Shown here: positions 33,433 through 59,200 of the stretch, in pieces
Position numbering within the stretch: the first letter of the stretch is position 1
Layout of the letters: every line of letters starts with the position of its first letter
DNA from: Coniochaeta sp. PMI_546
Lineage: Eukaryota > Ascomycota > Sordariomycetes > Coniochaetales > Coniochaetaceae
Assembly: GCA_021432605.1 (NCBI GenBank)
Contig: MU271161.1
Coordinates: 248,001 to 312,000 of the forward strand
Direction of reading: 5' to 3'
Length of the DNA stretch: 64,000 bases
Position numbers and translations under genes: made by a program
Notes under the pieces: generated by a model
The model's input: only the letters and a program-made list of their open reading frames with translations
Databases searched by the model: none
What the model was told of the DNA's origin: nothing

Positions 33433-35272
33433 ATGACAAGCATAGATGAGCTCTTCAAGGTAGGTCCAGCCTCTCGCGCTTTCCTACCACAACCCAAGCT
33501 AACACCAGTCTTAGAGCGCCGCCCTCCCAAGCAAGCGCAAGCTAGATCCCATCCGCGACCCCAACGAGATCTACAAATCCGCCAAAACCTCCTCCTCCAA
33601 CCCCTCGCGGCACGTCCAATTAGATGACCCGGACGACGTAGAAGCCGGCCCCGCCCCTCCCCCAGACGACGAAGACGAGTACGGCCCCTCCGCGCCGCCT
33701 CCCCCAGGCGACGACGCCGACGACGACAACGAGCCCGAGGAAGGCGACGACGAAGAAGGCCGCTTCTTCGGCGGCGGCATAACGCGCGACCAGGCCGAGG
33801 TCCTGACCTACGTCAACGCCACCGACGCCCCCGCCCCGGCGACCTTCGACCCCGCCTGGCTGCGGCGGACGGCCCTCGCGTTCGAGAAGCTGATCAACAA
33901 GAATGCCGAGCTGCGCGCGCGCTACGCCAGCGAGCCGGCGCGGTTTATGGAGAGCGAGGCCGACCTGGACTCTGCCGTGCGCGGGTGGGCTGTGCTCGCG
34001 GAGCACCCGGAGCTGTGGAGGGAGTTTGTCAGGGTCGGGAGTGCGGGGAGCTTGGTGGGACTGCTCGCGCACGAGAATGCGGATATTGCGGTTAGTGTGG
34101 TGGAGATTGTTGGGGAGCTGACGGGGGATGATGTCGAGGCTACGTCGGAGCAGTGGGATGTGCTTGTTGATGGTCTGCTGGAGGCTGATTTGCTCGGGTT
34201 GCTGGTTGGCACGTTTGGGAGGTTGGACGAGAGCGATGAGGCGGATAGGGAGGGCGTATACCATGCCATGGAGGTGGTGGAGAACCTGTGCAGTCGGGCT
34301 GAGACGGCGGATGCGGTTGGAAAGAATGAGAGTTTGCTGAAGTGGCTGCTCGAGAGGGCAAGAAAGGCGGAAAAGGAGGTGAGCCAGAACAAACAGTATG
34401 CGGCCGAGATACTGGCTATTCTGCTCCAGGCGTCGGCTGCAAATCGACGGAGGCTAGCTGACCTGGATGCTGCTGATATACTGCTGCAGCTCGTGGCCGC
34501 GTACCGGAAACGGGATCCGGAGAAGGGCGGGGAGGAGGAGGAGTTCATGGAGAACTTATTTGAGGCGCTGACGTGTCTTGTTGATGAGCCCGAGGGGAAG
34601 GCCAAGTTTGTCGAGGCCGAGGGCGTGGAGCTTTGTCTTATCATGCTGAAGGAAGGCAAAATGAGCAAGCGGCCGTCGCTACGGCTCCTAGATCACGCGG
34701 TTGGTGGTGCCGGCGGAGTGCAGGTCTGCAACAAGCTGGTTGAGGAGGGAGGGCTCAAGACACTATTTACCATGTTCATGAAAAAACATGACCATCAGAC
34801 GACAGAGCATCTGCTCGGCATATTTTCCTGGATGCTGCGGCTCCTGCCTGCTAACTCGGCGGAGAGGATACGGACGTTGGCAAAGTTTATGGAGAAGGAC
34901 TACGAGAAGACGGCCAAGCTCACCAAGCTGAGGCGGGAATATCTGGCCAAAGTCGAGGCCGCAGAGCAGGAAATGCGCCAAGAATTCGGCGGTAAGGGAC
35001 CTGAAGGCGAAGAGGAGGATGAGGAGTGGCTGTCGCGAAGAATGGAGGCTGGTCTGTTCTGTTTGCAGACCATCAACGTCATTCTCGCATGGCTTATAGC
35101 CGAGGACGACGGTGCGAGAAAGAAGATTGAGGCACTCCTCGCTGATCACGATGAGACGTTCCGCGACCTGAAGGTCAGGATAGAGGAGCAGCTGAAGGAG
35201 ACGGATGGGGAGACGGCTGAGGGTAAAGAGACGCGAGATATCCTGTCCACGCTCATGGACTTCCTACAGTGA
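33433..35272 (+). CDS. CTNNBL1: beta-catenin-like protein 1, spliceosome-associated (CTNNBL1 family)
   Basis: Predicted exons 33433-33459 (only 27 coding bases) and 33515-35272; 594 residues. The join gives DELFKSAALPSKRKLDPIRDPNEIYKSAK, the conserved N-terminus with a basic nuclear-localisation-like patch. An acidic, Pro-rich low-complexity segment follows (about residues 45-100). The armadillo-type helical repeats begin near FEKLINKNAELRARY and include SEQWDVLVDGLLE, NKQYAAEILAILLQ, ALTCLVDE and the strongly conserved RLLDHAVGGAGG. Human CTNNBL1 (563 residues) binds CDC5L in the Prp19 complex; by family this protein should act in the nucleus in pre-mRNA splicing. The C-terminus is helical and charged, as usual. 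Exon 2 is GC-rich in its first third. It faces VMA10 tail to tail. Confidence 0.95.
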
Positions 35273-35570: not shown

Positions 35571-36259
35571 TTACGCCGACCGCTGCGTGGGTGCAACAGG
35601 ATGAACCTCAAACACAGCCTTCAGCAGATCCTTGACGACCTTATCTTGGTTCTTCTTGCCGGCGTCCTTGATCTCCTTGATTTTGGCCTCGGCCTCCTTG
35701 TTGGCTTCGTCTTCGGCCTGCTTGTTCCCTTGGGTGTGCTATCGACAACCACCCATTCAGTATACCGGTCTATTTTCCAAATGGTAAGAGTAAGAATGTA
35801 GCCCTACCTCAGCCTCAAACTTCTTGAACTCCTCCTCCTTCTTCGCCCGGTAGGCTTCTATCTCCTTCTTGGCCTCATCGCGAGACTCCTTGACGCGCTT
35901 CGTCCTGTCTGTAGTTGTTGGGGTCGGGGATCAGTTTTCGGGCACGGGGACGCTATCTGGGGCGTTGGTAGGACATACATTCTCGGGCTGTTGTCATGAC
36001 AAATGAGTTAGCTTGGCTGTGCAGGTGGTTTCTTGGCTATACCGGGAGCTTACCTTTCTGGACGATCTTGGATGCCTCCCGCTCGGCCTGTAGTATTGTC
36101 AGATTGGTTATATGAATAGACGCCGAGGGCAAGTTATATCGGTTGAAGACGTACATCGAGCAGTGTCTGGATGCCCGCCGAGTTCTGAGCCGACTGTTAC
36201 TGCGTGGTTAGCTCAGGGCAACTGCAAGACCGGCCTGGTTGTCTAGGTTCACACACCAT
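35571..36259 (-). CDS. VMA10: V-type proton ATPase subunit G, six coding exons with a 9-nt microexon
   Basis: Predicted exons, 5' to 3': 36259-36257 (ATG only), 36193-36155, 36087-36054, 35987-35979 (9 nt, CCCGAGAAT), 35908-35808 and 35738-35571; 117 residues. All borders are GT-AG and keep frame. The joined protein begins SAQNSAGIQTLLDAEREASK, then IVQKAREYRTKRVKESRDEA, the signature of subunit G, in which A-R-E and part of Y come from the microexon. The protein is a single long charged helix (coiled coil) of the peripheral stalk, pairing with subunit E and holding the V1 sector against the membrane sector at vacuoles and other acidic organelles. Length fits the family (yeast 114). It diverges from PET117 across 418 bp. 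The start was chosen because splicing directly after this ATG gives the conserved second residue onward. Confidence 0.93.
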
Positions 36260-36677
36260 GATGTGTGACTGGCAATTCCTCCGGATCGGTATTACAAAGC
36301 AATCGAACGAGGCTGATATGTAGAGCGCGTATGTAAGGTCGGGAGAGAGGCGCCAAGATGTGTGGTACTGAGAGGTTATCGCAGGTCAAGGTTGATAGTC
36401 GTCACGGCGGGAGCTTGTCCAGAGCTGCCTGTCCCACTTGGCGCAATTGGAGCCGAACTGACGTGGGTCCCATCGTCCGTCATCCTAGACAGGCGGTGGC
36501 ACCTGGCAGAACCTGGAATGGCATGAGAGCTTCAATTATTTGTAGAGTAACTTACAACTTTCAATGTCCATGCGAGCTGGGGTAAGAAGTTGAAAATATA
36601 CGGAACAACGACTATGAGCTAGCATTACAGACACACATCCCAACCTCCACATACTACATCACCGCCACACCCTCAGG
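36260..36677. promoter_or_regulatory. divergent promoter, VMA10 (-) / PET117 (+)
   Basis: 418 bases between start codons facing apart. It must serve two small energy-related housekeeping genes. No TATA box is obvious. Confidence 0.5.
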
Positions 36678-37721: not shown

Positions 37722-40700
37722 TCAGCGAATCGAGACGCCAGACCGGTCGGTGAACATTCGCGCCGCAATGTTCATGGCCGCCAGCTCCTGGAACAGCAGC
37801 TTGGCAGCGTAGGGGATGTGCACTTGCGCGATGCGCGTCTTGTTTTTGCAAGGGCGGCACTCGAAGGATTGCTTGGAGAGGTTCCTATTTAAGTCATGTT
37901 AGCAAAACCCGCTTACAGTACATGTGGTCAAGTTTAGAAGGTAACTTACGCAATGGGCGTCATGAGTCCACAAATCTCGCAGATATGGACTCTGAAGGCA
38001 TCCGAGACCTCAAACAAGCGCTCCTTCAGGAACGACGCTGCACCGTGGGCAATCATGCAATCACGTTCCATCTCTCCGAAGCGGAGACCACCATCCCTAG
38101 CACGACCCTCCACCGGCTGCCGCGTCATGATCTGCACCGGTCCGCGGGCGCGAGCATGGATCTTGTCGTCCACCATGTGGCGCAGACGTTGGTAGTACGT
38201 CGGGCCGAAGAAGACCTGCGACCGCAGCTTGCGGCCCGTATGGCCGTGGTAGAGAATCTCGAAGCCACGCGACTGGTAACCGTGCTCGATCAGGAGGTCA
38301 GACACCGAGTCGACCGTCACGTCGGTGAAGGGTGTGGCGTCGCCCTCCATTCCCTTGAGGGTAGCGACCTTGGACAGGAGACACTCGATCAAATGGGCGA
38401 TTGTCATACGCGACGGAATGGCGTGCGGGTTGATGATGATATCCGGCGTGATGCCTTCTTGTGTGAAGGGCATGTCCTCCTGCCGGTATGTAACTCCGAT
38501 TGTTCCCTTCTGACCGTGACGAGAGGCGAACTTGTCTCCGATCTGAGGGATCTTGGTTGTGCGCACACGCACCTTGACGTACCGCAGGCCGTCCTGGTTG
38601 GTCGTCAAGATGACCTGGTCGACAATACCGCTCTCAGTGCTGCGTAGTGGCGTCGAGGCATCTCGTTTCACATGGGCCTGGGTGCGCTGACCCAACTCCT
38701 GGCTGTCAGGAGCTATGGGAGACGTCTTGCCGATGATGATATCCTCTCCCGAGACACGCACACCGGGGGCGACAATGCCATCGTCATCCAGCTTGTCATA
38801 CGTCCCGTGCTTCAGGCGTAAGGTGTCGCTGCGGAATGGCTTCTCGAACGATTCCACGGTATTGATGCCGACTCGTTTTTCGCAGTCGGTGTAGGCTCGG
38901 AAGAAGAGACTTCGGAAAAGACCCCGATCGATACTGCTTTGATTCATAATCACGGAATCTTCTTGGTTGTAGCCACCGTAGCAAGCGATGGCTACAATGG
39001 CATTCTGCCCAGCCGGAAGTTCACGGAACTTGAGGAACTCCATGGACCGTGTCGTCGCCAGTGGCTTCTGGGGGTAGTAGAGAATGTTTGCCATGGTGTC
39101 CATGCGACGAGAGAAGTTGGTAAGGAAGAAACCCATGGCTTGCTTGCCCATGGCAGATTGATACGTGTTTCGGGGAGACTGGTTGTGGTCAGGGAACGGG
39201 ATGATACTAGCGCAGATGCCCAGCAGCATACTGGGGTGGATCTCGCAGTGGGTGTACGCATGGGTAGTAGGATTGATCCTGGTCTTGATGCGGGCGTTCG
39301 GTTCGTTCTCGTGGTTGTCTGGAATCTTGAAGCCAGCCTTTTGTGCTCGGAAATCGGCGAGATCTTCCGGAGTCATGCAGATCATGGACGTCTCTTCCTC
39401 CTCAGCATCGAGGTAGTCGATACAGCCCGCGTCTTCCAACCCCTTGAAGCCGAAATATTCTGGGTCGTCTTTGGCTAGTTGAGTATCGCGTCTGAGCTTC
39501 TCAATATGAGTCTGGTTGATGACCAGCTCACCCACAGGCGTCTCCGCGTTCTCCCGTGTCTCAACGACGAACAGCGGCCTCATCACACGTCCTGCATCGG
39601 AGAAGATCTTAAACTCTCGGTCTCGAATGTCTCGGACCAACGAGACCTCAGGTGGTATGTCACCTTCACGACGGAGGTTGGTGATTTGAGCCACAAGGTT
39701 CTTCGGATCCTGGTGCACACCGACCCATGTACCATTGACGAAGACCTTGGTTGCGTTCGGGAACCGCAAGGGCTCGTACTCCTCCAACACCTCCATATTC
39801 CTTGCAATCATGAAATCGATAAGCGGCTCGGCAGGTTGTCCCACACTCACATAGCACATAAGTGCCAAATTCTTGACAAGCCCACAAGCTTGCCCCTCGG
39901 GCGTCTCAGCGGGGCAGACAAGACCCCAATGTGTGTTGTGCAGCTGTCGCGGCTTCGCCAACTTGCCGTCACGGCCAATGGGCGTGTTGGTGCGTCTCAA
40001 ATGCGACAATGTGGAAGCAAATGTATACCGATTCAACACCTGCGAGACACCGGCGGTGGTGCTCATGGCCTTCTTCTGATCGCCCCAGTTTCCTGTAGCA
40101 AGAGAATACTTCAAAGCGTTGGTGATGTTGGACGGCTTGATACCCAACGTCAACGTGAAGTTCTTGTTCTGGTCTACGCAGCGCTTCAAGTAGCTCATGA
40201 GGTCTTGTGTCATTCGGCGAACGATGTTTCGGAACAGCTTCGCGAGCAGAGGGCCAGCCAGGTCGAGGCGCTTCTTGCCAAAGTGATCACGGTCGTCGAC
40301 ATCGCGCCGGCCGAGGGCACACTGAAGCAGCTTGTGAACCATGTAGCCGAGGAAGAATGCCTTCCGTGTCTCACAACCCTCGGTCTGGGATATGTGAGGC
40401 AGCATTTCCTTCTGGAGCACGTCCTTGGCTGCCCGAATACGGTTGACCCGATTCTGTCCGTAATTGCCCGACCCACGCTTGCCGATGAAATCCAGTGCGA
40501 CCTCTTTGTCTTGGATAGCGAAAGCCTCTTCGATACAAGGACGAAGCATCTCCAGCATTGCACTATCGGTACGATCGTAGCAGATGTGGTTGAGAATGTC
40601 TTCGTCTGCCACGACACCGAGAGCCCGGAAGATAATAGCAATAGGAATCTCGTCTCTGACATACGGCAAGGAGGAGCGGATCGCATTCCCGATCTTTCCG

Positions 40701-41623
40701 GCCGAAGAGTCGCCTTTTGTGTAGAGCTTCATCTGCAGGGAAGAGATCAAACGCGAGCCTTTTTCAAGTGCACTGCGGATCTCGGCCGTATACGACACCG
40801 GGCCGCCGGCCGCCTTTTTGAAAACCTGGACGATGTTGGCAGCCGATCGCTCTTGAGCGATGAGTACCTTCTCACTTCCGTTGATGATGAAATATCCACC
40901 CTGGTCATAGGGGCACTCGTTCAACAGGAAGAGGCCGTCGTCATCCTCAGTCACCAGATGGCAGGTCTTGCTCTTGATCATCGCAGGCATCTTTCCCAAG
41001 AATACCAGATCTTTCAAGTGCTCAGGCCTCTCCTTATCGTTTAGCTTTGGCTCCGGTTCGGCCTCTTCGTCCTCCCAGACGATCCTCGTGGGCGGCTCGC
41101 CGGTACGTGCCAAATGCTCCCGCTGCTCATCGTCGAGCTCATGCAACGGGATCTCCTCGTTGACAGCAATCATGACAGACTTCTCAATCTTACCGAACAT
41201 AGCACTGGAGTAGGTCAAGTTTCTGTCGCGACACTCGTAGGGAAGGAGCACTGTTGTCTGGCCGTCGGCTTCTGTGATGGTCGGTTTGGCAACTGAGACC
41301 CTGCCAAATTTGATCTTATATCTTCGCAGAGCGATTTCCCGACCGTCGGCGGATGGCGGGTTAGGATGATCGAGGACCAGCTCCGAGTATTCATCGATCA
41401 ACGACTGCATGGTCTGTGATACGAACTCGTCGTATGAATCGATCTGCTGTGATACCAGGCCCTTGTATTCGAAGAAAGAGGAGATAACCACCCAGCAGTC
41501 CTCGGCCGTCATGCTGGGGCTATACTCGTCATCTTGGTCTCCGTACTCGCCATCGAGGGCGCCGCCGTTCTCGTAATCATCGTCATTGTAACCATCACCG
41601 TATGCCGGGTTGTATTCCGCCAT
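37722..41623 (-). CDS. RPB2: RNA polymerase II second-largest subunit Rpb2
   Basis: Predicted exons 41623-37950 and 37884-37722, intron of 65 nt near the 3' end; 1278 residues. Hallmarks include [20 protein letters not shown] (active-centre side) and [15 protein letters not shown] (hybrid-binding region). A C-terminal zinc site, CEICG near the end of exon 1 with CRPCKNKT in exon 2, is divided by the intron. The N-terminus is acidic and rich in Asp, Glu and Tyr. The protein forms the core catalytic cleft with Rpb1 and transcribes mRNA genes in the nucleus. The length is slightly above yeast (1224), owing to the acidic start and a longer C-terminus ([13 protein letters not shown]). It is single copy in fungi and widely used as a phylogenetic marker, so it is the best part of this window for naming the organism. 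Confidence 0.98.
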
Positions 41624-42987
41624 GTCGACTTAGAATCAAGGTAAGGTCGTGTGCTTGATCGGAAGTCTAAGGGACGGAGATGGGTGACTCGAGCACTCTA
41701 ATCTAGCGGAAAGGACTGCAAGCAAGAGATGGCGGCGGAAGGTGAGAGCAAGGCCACACTGTTCGGAAAGTTGCCACGCGCCCTCCAAATGAAACGCGCG
41801 ACTTCGGTTTCCCGACAGTTATCGGCTCCGGCGCATCAAAGAGAAAGCGCTGCCCCACGATAGTGACGTCGAGATGCTGAGCGTAACACAGATGCTGCTT
41901 GTGTTCGCAACTCGAGTTTGGGGAGTTGTTGGGTAGAAGGGTTGACGTGGGGAGGCGCGATGCTTCGTTTGCTCAAGCTTTCTTTTTGCCTTTGAGGCCG
42001 AAGGAGGCTGATGAAAGCCAGCCGCGCAGGCTCCACAGTAGACGCTAAGCTACAATGGGAATGGTTGAATGGATCCGCTGAATAAAGGGAGGTGAAACTA
42101 GAAGCCGCCAAGCTTCAACCTTTGATTGGTCAGCCCTTCTCTGTTGTACTCCAGGCAGAGGCCACCCACATAAGGTAGCTCGACCCTGACCATCATCCCG
42201 CCGTCAGTGACAACTTGGAAGTGAAAGCTACTCCAGTAAACACTAAAAAAACATGGATTTCGATAAACTTGAAGAGATCTGACCTGCGCAATCGATACGA
42301 TACTGTGTCACAATCTCATCTTCATTCCTCCCACCTCGCGTCACTGCGGGTAGGGTTTGGTCTTAGAACCTGCTCGTGACTTCTGTGTCTGTGTCCTGAG
42401 GCAAAGATAGCACATGAAGGACGTACCAACAGTCCATAGCAAGTCATTTCGAATCAAGTGTTCAAAGTCCATCCGATGATCCGAGTGTTCTCCCTGTCCG
42501 CAGGGTAGGCGGGTCAAAGATCGCTTCTTAAGAAGAGCCTAGCGACTCTCAAACCTGGTTCGATGATAGGGCTTTCCGGGTCGAACGTTGATTTCGGCCC
42601 AGGTTCCGGATTCCTGGAACGCTGTTCAATCTTTATTGCAGGATGTCTGCGTCTCTTTTAGTGCTGCTCGTGGCGTCTTGGTCGAGTGATTGAGGGATGC
42701 AATGGCCCACTCACCACATTTCTATTCGTGTGCAAGGGTACCACACGGAGCTCTGTCGCCGATATTGCCCCTTTGCGACTATGCACCTGCCCGACTTCCG
42801 TATCACGACCATGCCATATCCACGAGGGCTGGCGGAACATGCTTGTGGTTAGAAGCCCGAATCTCTATATGAACCACGCAGAGCCGCAATGTTGTTGTCT
42901 TATGGTCTCGCCATCCCCTAGGACGACCTCTATCGGCCATTCCCTGTCATATATAACACCAGACTCTTAGGTTCTCCCCAGATCACG
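41624..42987. other. intergenic, divergent RPB2 (-) and endoglucanase (+) promoters
   Basis: 1.36 kb without a gene. The right end contains a TATATAA at 42950-42956, 32 bases before the endoglucanase ATG. The left end is GC-rich upstream of RPB2 and lacks a TATA box. Confidence 0.5.
42950..42956 (+). promoter_or_regulatory. TATA box of the GH45 gene
   Basis: TATATAA lies 32 bases before the ATG at 42988. That is close to the start codon, so the 5' untranslated region would be very short or transcription starts within it. Confidence 0.45.
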
Positions 42988-46352: not shown

Positions 46353-47915
46353 CTAATAATGGCAAATCCCCCCAACATCATCATCAATAGTCCACGTGCC
46401 CGCCAAGCCGGCGACCTCGACCTCCTCGGTCGCCGCGCCCACCCCCGGCACGATGGGCTCCTCCGGCTTCCCGAAGAAGAAGTCATTCTTCCCCTCGGCC
46501 CTGAGCACGCGGCTCATGAAGCGCCGCGCCCACTCCTCCACGGTCGGCTCGCCCGTCTCGTCGCGCGCCTGCTTGAGGAACGACATCAGCGCCGTGCCGC
46601 CCGTGCCCTTGAGGTCGCGCCTCTTGCTGTCGTCGGCAGCGGGGGCCTCGAAGGCGATGCCCTGCGGACCTGAGCGGCGCTCCTGGACCGGCGAGTGGGA
46701 GGTGCGTGAGGAAGCGGTGGCGAGGTTGAGCTTCCGCCGCGTGGCCTCGGGGCTGCGGGAGCGGCTGCGGGCCCGGACCTCCCGGCTGGGCAGGACGATG
46801 TACCGGGTCACGATGGCGATGTGCTTGTCGCGCATGACGCGGAGCATGGACAGGCAGGCGTCGTAGGCGATGCACAGCTGCACGTCGGACTGGTTGTCGT
46901 CGACGAACTCGCGGATGTTGGCCACGGCCTGCACGTCGTTGAGGAAGCGGGCGTGCGGGCCGGGCATGTACTTGCGCATCTCCATGATGAAGTTGTGCTT
47001 GGGCTTGGAGGCGCGGCCCTCGCGGTCGGACAGGGAGTCGGCGCGGCTGCGCCTCTCGCCGGTGGGGTGGTGGTCCACGCCCAGGACGATGTCGAAGAAC
47101 TGGATGATGCTGCTCTGCGCGTTGCTGCCGCCCGAGTACTGGCGGTACTCCTCCGTGCCGGTGCCGTCCTCGTAGATGACGCCGTGGGGCAGGCCGGCCT
47201 CGGCCATGTTCTTGCTGCCGGCGAGGAAGGGGCGGATCCGGTGGTAGAAGATGGTGGGGTCGCAGCTCTCGTTCATGCGCTGGAGCAGGGTGCCGAGGTC
47301 GTCCAGGCGCTCGGCGAAGGTCTGCAGGCAGCGGGTGACGGTCGCCGCATCTCCGGCTCTGGCAGCCGCGATGGCTGTTAGCATCAGCGGGATGATGGGG
47401 CCTCCGCGTGCTTCGATGGCGACTGAGACCAGGTAAAACCAGGACTCGTCGAGGGCGCCGGTGAAGGTGTTCAGCGTGGCGAGATTCTCGAGGTTGTCGA
47501 TGCTCTCGTCCACGAACAGGGGCTTGAAGTTCCACAGGCAGAGGCTGGCGTAGGTGGCGACGGGCGGCACCTCGAGGTGTTCGGACACCTCCAACAGCGG
47601 GACTGCGATGGCCGGCGGCAGGCGGTCGCTGGGGCTGTCACCGCCCCAGATGTAGCCGTGGGCCATGAAGGTCAGCAGCGAGTAGGCTCTGCGCCATTCT
47701 GCGTCGTGTTCCAGACCGATGGTGGAGAGCACGGGGAGCCGGTCGACGACTCCTCTCAGTCGCTTGCTGAGGATCAGGGCCTGCAAGTTGGCGGCGATGG
47801 CCTCCCACTTGGTGTAGTAGGGATCAGGGAGTCTCGTCAACGGCAGGACGTCCGGAAGGAAGCCATGAGTTGGAGAGAGTCCATAGTCGGCGAGTACGGG
47901 GATGGAAGGAAGCAT
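46353..47915 (-). CDS. BNA2: indoleamine 2,3-dioxygenase (BNA2-type)
   Basis: Single exon, 520 residues. The start at 47915 (MLPSIPVLADYGLSPTHGFLP) matches the usual N-terminus; upstream in-frame sequence has no ATG. The conserved C-terminal haem region is present (HNFIMEMRKYMPGPHARFLNDV), with the candidate proximal histidine in PGPH, and the family end GTGGTALMSFLKQARDET is also in place. The enzyme opens the indole ring of L-tryptophan to N-formylkynurenine, the first step of de novo NAD synthesis in fungi. Compared with the usual 400-450 residues, this protein carries an extra Arg/Ser- and Pro-rich stretch (RARSRSRSPEATRRK and onward, about residues 385-430) between the haem region and the GTGGT motif, and a longer C-terminus. 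The middle of the gene is very GC-rich. Confidence 0.93.
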   Translation of the reverse strand: MLPSIPVLADYGLSPTHGFLPDVLPLTRLPDPYYTKWEAIAANLQALILSKRLRGVVDRLPVLSTIGLEHDAEWRRAYSLLTFMAHGYIWGGDSPSDRLPPAIAVPLLEVSEHLEVPPVATYASLCLWNFKPLFVDESIDNLENLATLNTFTGALDESWFYLVSVAIEARGGPIIPLMLTAIAAARAGDAATVTRCLQTFAERLDDLGTLLQRMNESCDPTIFYHRIRPFLAGSKNMAEAGLPHGVIYEDGTGTEEYRQYSGGSNAQSSIIQFFDIVLGVDHHPTGERRSRADSLSDREGRASKPKHNFIMEMRKYMPGPHARFLNDVQAVANIREFVDDNQSDVQLCIAYDACLSMLRVMRDKHIAIVTRYIVLPSREVRARSRSRSPEATRRKLNLATASSRTSHSPVQERRSGPQGIAFEAPAADDSKRRDLKGTGGTALMSFLKQARDETGEPTVEEWARRFMSRVLRAEGKNDFFFGKPEEPIVPGVGAATEEVEVAGLAGTWTIDDDVGGICHY

Positions 47916-49175
47916 AACTCGTCTATGGATGTAGTCCCAAAGTGAGTTTGATTGAGTAAGAGACGTCTCGACGATGATGTCTGTCGATAGTAGAACTCTC
48001 AAGTATCAAACTTGACAGATGTAGGTGCTGGGTTAGGGGATGAGGCGACTCTGACTTGATATCGAGTATTGACCTGACGCAAGGAGTATACAGAATTTGC
48101 TCTGTAATACTCCTCAGCCGTGCGAAAAATCTGTTGTCCTGTTCTCATCAAAGTCGCAATATCCTGAAGGCTTCCGGTGAAGAAGAGATATAGATGTGTC
48201 TGGAAGTGGGAGAGAGTGAGAGACTTCCCCCGGAAAGCGTGGAAGACGGTGACAAATGGGAGACGCGCGACTTTTAATAATCAACGGGAGACATGGAATC
48301 AAGTCAGTCAAGCACCGAAAGTCCTCGGATGACGGGCAGAGCCGCGCAAATCGCCTCATTGCGATTCATTTGCCCCGACTTTTTTCTGCAGAATCCACAG
48401 GAAACACTCAAGCGGGTTCGCAGGGCTTAGGCTTCTCTGGCTCTTCACACCAGTACACACCAGGCCGGCTCGGTGGAGTTGAGCAGGTGATCTTCCGGGC
48501 ACTCGGGAACCATAGGGACGACACGGTCTCGAAGTTCTTGGCGCCATCTCAAATGCCTCCGACTGCGGACGTCTTGAAAATCACCGACGAGGTAGAGACT
48601 CGCTTGAGTAACACCCACAGGTGTACCTACCATACTTAGTAGAGACAATAAATAGCATGTGATGGGCACTTCACAGCAAGGCAACAAGGAAACGGACATC
48701 TTAGATTGTGTAACAGTCAAACAGCATGCATGAACGCCCCGAAAACCATTGAAGATCTAGGTATCTCAGCATGCCAATTGGCCTTCAATCACGAGTCAAC
48801 CTACCATACTATGGTAGCATGTTTTGCAGCGCGGGGAGCAGAAGGGTTTTTTCTTCAGCGGCAACCGTCGGGTTTAAATGGGAAACGCAGGAATGTCGAC
48901 TACCTTACTCAGATAGTACGTAGTGTACCTGCCACAGTATTGTGGTAGTACTATGTAGAAGGTGCTTGTGCACGGACCAGGAGATTCAAGGTAGACCCCA
49001 CATGAGGGGAAGCTCCCGTTCTTGGGGAGGGAGGTACGTACCCCTTCTGCCCTTCCAGCCTCGTCATCCCCGCCAAGCTTCAACCACACACACCTTCCAA
49101 GCTGTCCAGGCTCCATGTTTCAACGTCCAGCCATGATCCGATAGCAACTAATTGTGGCAGCTGCTCCAATTGACA
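47916..49175. other. intergenic, divergent IDO (-) and VPS23 (+) promoters
   Basis: 1.26 kb without a recognisable gene. The open frame running upstream of the IDO ATG (to about 48002) has no ATG and is taken as leader. Short frames elsewhere show no motif. Confidence 0.5.
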
Positions 49176-55095: not shown

Positions 55096-56282
55096 CTACA
55101 CCGTCAACTGTTCGTGATGCTCAATCTGGCGCGCAACTCTCACGCCCTTTTCCGCATCCGCGCCCTCGTACTTTGCGAAGCCGTCGTCCTTCGCGCTGTT
55201 CTGTCCCTGACTGGAGTTGGCTTTGCTCTCTACCCGGGACGACACGGTGGCGCTATGCCAGCTCCTGAGGAACGGCTCCTTGTTGCTGCGCGAGCTGGGC
55301 GGCTTGCTGCCCTCCGACGAGCTAAAGGCGCTCGGGTTCGCTATACGCTGCGCTGCCAGGGTTCCGAGCGGCAGCACGACCACGACCGAAGTGTAGGTCA
55401 GAGAGCCGAACTCATATGCGTTCCATGGGCCGTACTCTATGCCGGCGAAGAAGGCTGGACTTGCGTTAATCGATGTCCCATAAGATGACTTGCGGGCTGG
55501 GCTAGAAGATGCTTACCCGGAATACACATGAGAATGCCGTTGGTCATGACCAGCACCTCCATGGCTGACATGCCCTTCACGGAGGGAAGAATACTGCGGT
55601 TCTGGACCATGTGTATGGCTAGTCGGACGTTGAAGAGGAAGCAAAACCAGAAGATGGATGCCGAGCTGAACGCGAGGTCCGTCTTTCGCACCCATAGTAT
55701 CGGTGAGAAATCAAAGTAGACGATGGCCAACGCTTGGATGACGGAACTGGCGAACTTGAACCCGACGGCCGCACCCGCGACAAGGGCCGAAAGGCCGATG
55801 GCGGGAAACTTGTACACGGCCGGCCATAGCTGGATCATGGCCCATGCCTGCACAATCAGTGCCGCCTCGATGAGAATGATGAGCGGGATGGTGGAGACGG
55901 TTCCGACGACGCTCATGCGGTAGTTGCTCGCCGGGACGAGACTTATGTCGCCCGACCAGAGGGTGTAGAACTCGTACCATTGCGACGAGGGGAACCAGGC
56001 GAGCAAGACGCAGCGCACAATGTTGCATAGCAGGGCGAGGAAGTTCAGCATTGTGGGCACCCGTCGATACTTGGCGCGTGGAGTCATGATCAGGTACACG
56101 ATCAGCATGATGATGGTGGCTCCGATTTGGCTGCCATAGATGGCTTGCGCGGCGAATCGAGCAGTGTACACCTCATCAACCATGTCGACTGGCACGGGGA
56201 TCTCCGTGACACCGTCTGGCCCTATGAGGGTGAAGACTTGGGTGAGGACGTCGAAGTCGTCCGTGCTGTTGCCGGAGGCCAT
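55096..56282 (-). CDS. STE2: Ste2-type alpha-pheromone G-protein-coupled receptor
   Basis: Predicted exons 56282-55517 and 55454-55096, phase 1; 374 residues. The start at 56282 (MASGNSTDDFDVLTQVF) is the first Met after a long in-frame leader; the leader is poor in family character. Seven hydrophobic segments follow. Ste2-family marks include QAIYGSQIGATIIMLIVYL (helix 1), FLALLCNIVRCVLL (helix 2), QWYEFYTLWSGD (loop), AALIVQAWAMIQ (helix 4), AMEVLVMTNGILMCIPAFFAGIEYG across the splice (helix 6), and SLTYTSVVVLLPLGTLAAQR (helix 7). The tail is about 80 residues, hydrophilic, with Ser clusters that can be phosphorylated. By family it senses the alpha-type peptide pheromone at the plasma membrane and signals through a heterotrimeric G protein in mating; in some fungi it also directs growth toward plant peroxidase signals. 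It is the homologue of Neurospora pre-2. Confidence 0.93.
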
Positions 56283-59200
56283 AGCGTTGGTGGTTGAACT
56301 TGGCACCCGAGGGACAATGGTCGTTGCTTGCTGCTGTGTATCCTCAACGGACAGGCCGAGATCGCCGATGCAAGCGGTCGAGAGTGTCTTTGCTGATGCG
56401 GAAACTTGGCGGATTTTCGAAGATATGTCCCGTGGATTTGGAAGGAGGAGAGACAAAGGCCTGTTGGTTGGTTGGTCTGAGGTGAGCTGGAACTGAGCAA
56501 TCCAACGCAAGCTGTCCTGACAGGAAAGATGGCAGATAGTCTCGTTGATGAAGTGGCTTTAACCTCACGATTGGGTTATAGAGAAAAGTTGCAAGCTCTA
56601 GTCCACTCATCTTTGGCAACAAGACCGATGAGAGATGTGACTTGTGTGTCCGAAGATCCTGACCTCATCGCTTGAGGAGAAGGCCTCATCGTATTCTCCT
56701 TCTGGGCCAAAAGGACATGTCGAACTCGCTATTCTCACAAGTCATCAATCGATTGGAATGATGCCGACGAGAAGAATACGAAAGACGGCAACAAGCAAGG
56801 GTTGTGCAGGAACAGGCATGGATTCTAGCCGTGGCGTAGGTTTGTTGGTGGTTGTGGGGAAGAGCTTAGTATTGTTCTCGATGTCAATCCCCCAGGCTGT
56901 AAGTCTCTTAGTATTGTTCACCCTGCAACCGGAATGCCACTCATCAGCCCCAAATCTGTCAACCACAGGCAAACACTCTCAGATGAGATCCTCTGGGCGC
57001 TAATCCAGGTGATAGATCGGTAATTCAGACCAAATAGCTGAGGGAAAGGTTGGTATATCATTCTGCTGGCCCCTTACGAGGAAGAAAGGTTGCGGGAAGG
57101 GATGATCAGCCAGTATTAATCGTTCTCGACTCGTGACCGCCTGTCTCCTACTGGAGTTAACGTAAAAAGCAAGTGACGAGGCCATCACAAGGAGTGAGAA
57201 GTGATGCGGATCAAATCTCCCGCTGTAGCTTGGGCTCGGTTTGAATGAGTCGAAGCCGACGATGGAAGGTCATCTCGACTACGTACACTTTGGTGGACCC
57301 TCGATGCCGGCAAAAGATGATCAACGACCCTAGAACTCAGCTATCAGTACGGCCAAGTACATACAAAAATGTCAGAGACCTTGGTGTTCTGGCAAGGGAA
57401 GCAGGGGTCATCGAGGTCCTACGAATATCCAGGTTCGCCACAAAGCTAAATCTGAACTCTGAAGGGATGATGACTGCCCGTGCTGACATATGCCACGGTG
57501 CTAGTAACATACCGGAAGCGGATTATGGTTCGTAAGACCTGGTCCTTGGAGAGGTTACGAACATGTTACTGGTTACCTGGGATCCAGCCATTGCGCTCTT
57601 CCTGACATATTTCAACATCGCGCCTCGACAGTACAGCAACAGACACATACGCTTTCTGCACTCTAAACTGATGGATCAGAAGTGAGTAGCCAGCCGGCCT
57701 GACTGGTATGAGGTACCCGCGCCTACACGCCGAATTCTGTGGCTCCGAAGGGAGTTGACGTCTAGGCCATCCCTTAGCATGTCATACTCATGCCCAGTCT
57801 GCAGCACCTAATGTTGATTTCGGAGCATCACTTTCATGATAAAACTAGCTGAGATTGGAGAAGCCATACAGTAAACCAGTCATGGCGGCCAGTCAATCTT
57901 ACACGTCTACTGCTCCAATGATCCGGTATCATCGCCTAATAGCCATCAAGTTGAGACACGCCCGCTTCACCCCAAATACATTTGAAGTGCTTGGCTGTCC
58001 ACTTGATTGGAGACTTCCAGTCATGCGCTTGATAACAACAATACTAGCTTCAATTTCCTTAAGTTATACGATGCATCCTTTCTCTTGGAAGAGGTAAGAG
58101 AAATGATGGCCTCCATAGGTATCATCATCCTTTACGTGAACTGAACAAGTACATCAGCCCACAAACATTTGTAGAGTAGCGTAATAAGAAAATAAGTACC
58201 CAGAGAACGTAGACTGACACCAATGTTCCATGGCTAGGGAAGAGGCATACCTGGAAGACCCCGATCAGACACAGGCCATGGACACACTCGTTGATCACAG
58301 CCAAGTCTGAGGTCCCGGAAGTTGCTGAAGTTGCTTGCACATCTGCAAAGATACGTTCTCTTCTTGTAGTACAGGCTGTCGGACTGTCTATACAATTGCT
58401 TCCAAGGTCGCGCGTTCTGACCATGAACATACTCGCGGCGTACCACACGTACTACAGCTTCAATGTCTTCAGGTGGCAGACAGGTGTTCCCCAGCCGTCC
58501 TCCGACGGAGTGCCAAGAAATCTTCACCTTGATATCAGGATTTGACCGAAGCCACGGTTCACCTCCAGTCAAATAAGACGACCGAGCCTCTGCGTGAAGT
58601 CAAAGTGGTGCAGTATCCAAGCTTACTCCGTGCGCACTTACTCTCGAACCAATCAAGGCGCAGATGGCCTGCTCGTCGCGATTCCAGCATCTGAATCCTG
58701 CCGAAGCTGACAGCTTTAAGCTTAAACCAGCGAACTACTTGACATTATCCTATAGAGCTGATTATTTTCCAGTAAATGCGGAATTGAAGGTCTTTCGTTT
58801 CCTTCGAAGCATCTCCTGTGTCCATGAATAGATAGAGGTCCCTCGCCTATTTGGCATTCTGACTCCGATAGAGACACGGGCTTTGCAACCGCGGCTGCAA
58901 CATCTTTCGTCTTGAAGACTGCACGGGACTGGGTGTCCATCTTCCTTTTTCGTCCTCGCACTCTACACGTGTATGTTCGTTCATGGGCATCATCGAAGAT
59001 CGATTCCCATTGCCATGGCAAATGTCATGCTCTCGCTGTTAACGGAGTTAAATGCAGAGCACCACCGCGCTATTCCTCATGTAGACTCCAATCTGCGATT
59101 GGCCAGTATACAAGTGTGACACTACTGGCACTACTACATTGGGAAACCAGTCTCCCAGTGGCCCATGCCAAGCCCAAATGCCGTAGTCGAGACTCATGGA

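Follow-up and report, generated by a model that had tools for sequence, protein, structure and literature searches.

The window analysed here (the whole stretch of 64,000 nucleotides from Coniochaeta sp. PMI_546) contains 182 stop-to-stop frames of at least 100 residues, 20 of which were scanned with Pfam. A match was obtained for 16 of these 20 frames, and the matched families include a fungal Zn-cluster transcription factor, the STE2 pheromone receptor, an Rpb2-type subunit, indoleamine 2,3-dioxygenase, GH10 and GH45; judged by its genes, the window is fungal. No RNA families or tRNAs were reported in the window.

The gene considered below occupies positions 36259-35571 of the minus strand. 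Its downstream neighbour is a convergent CTNNBL1-type gene on the opposite strand (33433-35269, identified by Pfam), which, as seen by eye, starts at 33433 and has a short first intron after nine codons, from 33460; CTNNBL1 is a spliceosome-associated protein. Upstream lies the gene of an Rpb2-type RNA polymerase subunit (37949-41629), mostly a single open frame of 1,227 codons. The last domain of this subunit is matched only in part, and the gene is overlapped by long antisense frames, for example 39479-41041 (plus strand, 521 codons). An IDO-type gene (46356-48005) and an STE2-type pheromone receptor gene (55440-56558) are situated farther away.

Structure of the gene and identity of the protein

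The gene consists of six coding segments (3, 39, 34, 9, 101 and 168 nt), between which lie five GT-AG introns (63, 67, 66, 70 and 69 nt). The coding part of exon 1 (36257-36259) is the ATG only, the physical exon also carrying the 5'UTR, and is followed by intron 1 (36194-36256, GTGTGT...CTAAC...AACAG), for which there is an alternative in-frame acceptor with the intron end at 36185. Exon 2 (36155-36193, 39 nt) encodes residues 2-14; intron 2 (36088-36154, 67 nt) has phase 0; exon 3 (36054-36087, 34 nt) is covered by both Pfam and PDB matches. Intron 3 (35988-36053, 66 nt, phase 1, GTAAGC...GCTAAC...CAG) and intron 4 (35909-35978, 70 nt, phase 1, GTATGT...ACTGAT...CAG) flank a microexon of 9 nt, CCCGAGAAT, at 35979-35987. 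Exon 5 (35808-35908, 101 nt) has a Pfam match and is separated by intron 5 (35739-35807, 69 nt, phase 0) from exon 6 (35571-35738, 168 nt including the stop codon). The joined segments encode 117 residues, and the last base of the stop codon is 35571.

The introns are crowded at the 5' end: introns 1-4 interrupt codons 1-29, and intron 5 follows codon 62, in line with the initial annotation, which had placed four of the five introns within the first 60 residues. Each of the five introns contains stops in two or three frames, and retention of any single intron (5 of 5) creates an in-frame stop. The branch-like sites match 5 or 6 of the 6 positions of a consensus.

The 117-residue protein matches a single Pfam family, V-ATPase_G (PF03179), at 114.7 bits (the cut-off being 28.6), and the match is of whole length, as residues 4-107 of the protein cover positions 1-104 of the 105-position profile. 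In PDB, 12 distinct sequences were matched at E <= 0.001 (best, 1.4e-16), and all 12 are named as subunit G, G 1/G1 or G 2 of the V-type or vacuolar proton pump. In the genome of the same organism, the V-ATPase_G family was found at one place only, in two exon matches that belong to this gene, and the DNA of the gene matched only itself. Searches with the full protein yielded 12 pattern stretches in viral contigs and 62 in bacterial and archaeal genomes, with no confirmed relatives in either set. Thus, by sequence similarity, the gene is of the VMA10 type and encodes a predicted subunit G of the V-ATPase peripheral stalk, the sole one found in the genome; the identity proposed originally is hence upheld, and the coordinates given for the gene, the ATG and the microexon proved exact when the sequence was re-read.

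It had also been claimed that no other GT-AG model keeps the frame. This does not hold, as 105 models of the junction around the microexon and 10 models of the 5' end keep the frame. Since several such models exist, it is homology that decides among them, and on these grounds the six-segment VMA10 model is probably correct.

The isolated start codon

The ATG at 36259-36257 runs straight into GTGTGT, the intron having phase 0. The unspliced frame upstream of exon 2 has one codon and then TAA, and hence the ATG must be spliced in. When one-intron models with introns of 40-300 nt were enumerated, 10 stop-free models provided an ATG for the 5' end. Two of them use the ATG at 36259, with an intron of either 63 or 72 nt, and both leave a coding segment consisting of the ATG only; the length of these introns agrees with that of the other introns of the gene. 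The two acceptors, one before 36193 and one before 36184, differ by 9 nt, and a good protein results from either, with 114.7 and 114.9 Pfam bits for the 63-nt and 72-nt introns, respectively, so that Pfam does not discriminate between them; the model given here takes the 63-nt intron, with the N-terminus MSAQNSAGIQ. A tandem acceptor, CAGTAACAG, is observed at the end of intron 1 (36202-36194), where use of the first AG produces ATG-TAA, an immediate stop; the further in-frame AG lies 9 nt inside exon 2, ending at 36185.

The other 8 of the 10 models start at an ATG farther upstream, at 36473 or 36483, and if translation began there, the start codon would not be alone in its coding segment. 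These models, however, require introns of 212-278 nt, much longer than introns 2-5 (66-70 nt), with the donors GTTCGG, GTCAGT, GTGGGA and GTGACG (two models each). Further, the displayed PDB matches open at residues 2-12 of the chains, hence a longer N-terminus is not expected, and an AUG-only exon is present in budding yeast VMA10. Despite the larger number of models, we regard an upstream start as very improbable. The start codon isolated by an intron, reported in the initial annotation, is therefore retained, with the ATG followed by GTGTGT and the TAA upstream of exon 2, but it is isolated in its coding part only. As the 5'UTR shares the exon with the ATG, exon 1 is physically longer than 3 nt, and its recognition need not be unusual.

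The nine-base microexon

The microexon comprises two of the three bases of the Ala26 codon, the whole codons of Arg27 and Glu28, and the first base of the Tyr29 codon. In all five PDB alignments displayed (of the 12 sequences matched), these residues fall in a gapless match; they are aligned to ARKY in the yeast chains and to ARKR in two other chains, presumably mammalian. With 9 nt and GT-AG introns on both sides, the exon lies within the size limit for internal coding microexons (at most 27-30 nt), an assignment made by homology only.

The possible junctions between exons 3 and 5 were compared by enumerating all stop-free in-frame models that link the 18 nt at the start of exon 3 to the final 60 nt of exon 5. 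One or two GT-AG introns were allowed, each no shorter than 40 nt, and a middle exon could have up to 60 nt; the alignment scores of each model to two reference proteins were added up and used for the ranking. There are 11 one-intron and 94 two-intron models, 105 in total, and the model with the 9-nt exon is the best (score 218), followed by one with a 13-nt exon (199). In addition, 20,000 dinucleotide shuffles were made of the 145 nt that separate exon 3 from exon 5, with six end bases fixed on each side. In this test, devised after the nine bases were already known, AG-N9-GT flanked on either side by 45 nt or more occurred in 2,537 of the 20,000 shuffles, and an occurrence equalling the real one in its fit to the conserved residues was seen in 9 of the 20,000.

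If the microexon were skipped, always or conditionally, exon 3 would be joined directly to exon 5 by removal of a 145-nt intron, the frame would be preserved, the outer donor and acceptor would be unchanged, and a 114-residue protein with D in place of AREY would be made. Such a protein scores 101.0 Pfam bits vs. 114.7, a loss of 13.7 bits, and its junction scores 170 vs. 218; moreover, the conserved helix would become three residues shorter, and the intron would be approximately twice as long as any of the five introns of the gene model. Skipping thus seems quite unlikely. Still smaller is the probability that we assign to the runner-up of the ranking, a 13-nt microexon at 35987-35975 with the donor GTCCTA and the acceptor before 35904, where ARECM replaces AREYR. 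This version is in frame and still retains 109.6 Pfam bits, so that Pfam alone parts it from the 9-nt model by 5.1 bits; however, it is lower in both tests, loses the Tyr-Arg common with yeast, and has a donor more distant from the usual consensus than GTATGT, and we consider it extremely unlikely. The claim that a 9-nt exon supplies conserved residues thus withstood the comparison, given the gapless PDB match, the loss of 13.7 bits on skipping and the first rank among 105 models.

Introns 3 and 4 were also considered as a stwintron. This reading was ruled out by reasoning, as removal of intron 4 takes away the acceptor needed by the 145-nt outer intron; the pair represents two ordinary introns.

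Proposed mode of splicing

In animals, very short exons hinder assembly across the exon, which is a problem for exon definition. The initial annotation had assumed that exons as short as those observed here need special recognition, which is doubtful: the five introns are all of 63-70 nt and hence suited to intron definition, and the first exon has the 5'UTR, so that special recognition is probably not required. The donors of the introns flanking the microexon are GTAAGC and GTATGT, and their branch-like sites are GCTAAC and ACTGAT. No match to SRRM_C (PF15230), of the animal SRRM3/SRRM4 machinery, was found in the genome of the organism or in any of the 14 control genomes. On one strand of contig C2, matches to the WW and FF domains are ordered as WW, WW, FF, FF, FF, an array that fits a putative Prp40-like gene, and contig C21 carries another frame in which both WW and FF are matched.

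We suggest that the microexon would be constitutively included, as its residues are conserved and its omission would cut the helix by three residues. The short introns 3 and 4 (66 and 70 nt) would each be paired across the intron by U1, Prp40 and the branch-point protein. As the splice sites of the microexon are too close for simultaneous use, the introns would most likely be removed consecutively, one at a time; the expected failure would then be intron retention, not exon skipping. In one S. pombe study, attempts to force the skipping of a microexon reportedly failed and led to retention of the intron downstream.

The order of removal and the role of Prp40 are carried over by analogy from plants, worms and yeast, and may apply here. 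Intron definition is described as the default for short introns, and yeast Prp40 as bridging the 5' splice site and the branch point; in worms, a microexon was freed from its dependence on PRP-40 once a long flanking intron had been swapped for a short one (PMC8378409). In plants, the introns next to a microexon are taken out one after the other, with a tendency of the upstream intron to be detained (PMC8831610).

One could also suppose that the split N-terminal half of the gene, with the steric conflict at its 9-nt exon, serves as dosage control in filamentous fungi. In that case, introns 3 and 4 would be removed slowly and in sequence, retention would lead to a stop, and this would set the amount of subunit G and hence of assembled V-ATPase; in a minor skipped form, also in frame, the stalk helix would lose three residues. 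We give this view only a slim chance. Considered as a whole, the reading with a constitutive 9-nt exon, intron definition and a yeast-like isolated ATG in a VMA10-type gene appears highly likely.

Comparison with known systems

The isolated ATG and the 9-nt exon are both oddities of already known kinds. S. cerevisiae VMA10 is not known to have more than one intron; the gene described here differs by its five introns and by the 9-nt exon inside it. The two genes are alike in that both encode subunit G, with a gapless alignment, and in that the first coding exon of the yeast gene is also the AUG alone, 3 nt; first exons of precisely 3 nt are counted for 20 yeast genes, the table giving the coding part of the exon (PMC3226532).

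Among filamentous ascomycetes, vma-10 of Neurospora crassa is said, after Hunt and Bowman (1997), to have five introns, and this number equals the number observed here. The layout may well have been published already for the Neurospora gene, a subunit G gene of a filamentous ascomycete isolated in 1997 (cited in PMC6131620). Among the literature matches listed, none dealt with a fungal VMA10 microexon, which does not show its absence from print; PMC8394074 has VMA10 only as a table entry, and PMC8476143 mentions neither VMA10 nor a microexon.

Microexons of other genes offer partial parallels. Phanerochaete chrysosporium is a basidiomycete, and its microexons sit in another gene family, that of P450. 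The P450 genes contain exons of 2-10 residues, the shortest of 6 bp, between small introns (PMC1184071). Another filamentous ascomycete, Trichoderma virens, also has an internal microexon, in Xlr2, but that gene encodes a transcription factor and its microexon shows switch-like glucose-dependent inclusion, whereas constitutive inclusion would be expected here (PMC11121469). Fungal microexons have been reported, but the same source states that they are relatively little characterised and that tests had been made on cases from S. pombe only. A potato invertase exon is, as here, coding and of 9 nt, with its flanking introns removed in two steps (PMC4674806); it and other plant microexons differ in gene, introns and splicing signals, the latter two being those of plants (PMC4674806; PMC8831610).

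Implications

As the version with the microexon skipped stays in frame, an automatic gene model could drop the microexon unnoticed, and it is plausible that annotated VMA10 orthologues are wrong in this region. In ten plant species, the majority of 2,398 microexons of at most 15 nt are described as unannotated (PMC8831610). The gene is a clean test case for gene finders, with a conserved helix that hinges on nine easily dropped bases, and for splicing without exon definition. Otherwise the biology is ordinary, and the product is a small, unremarkable part of a proton pump. The intron that follows the start codon has the same position in budding yeast VMA10, and this would point to an old intron site.
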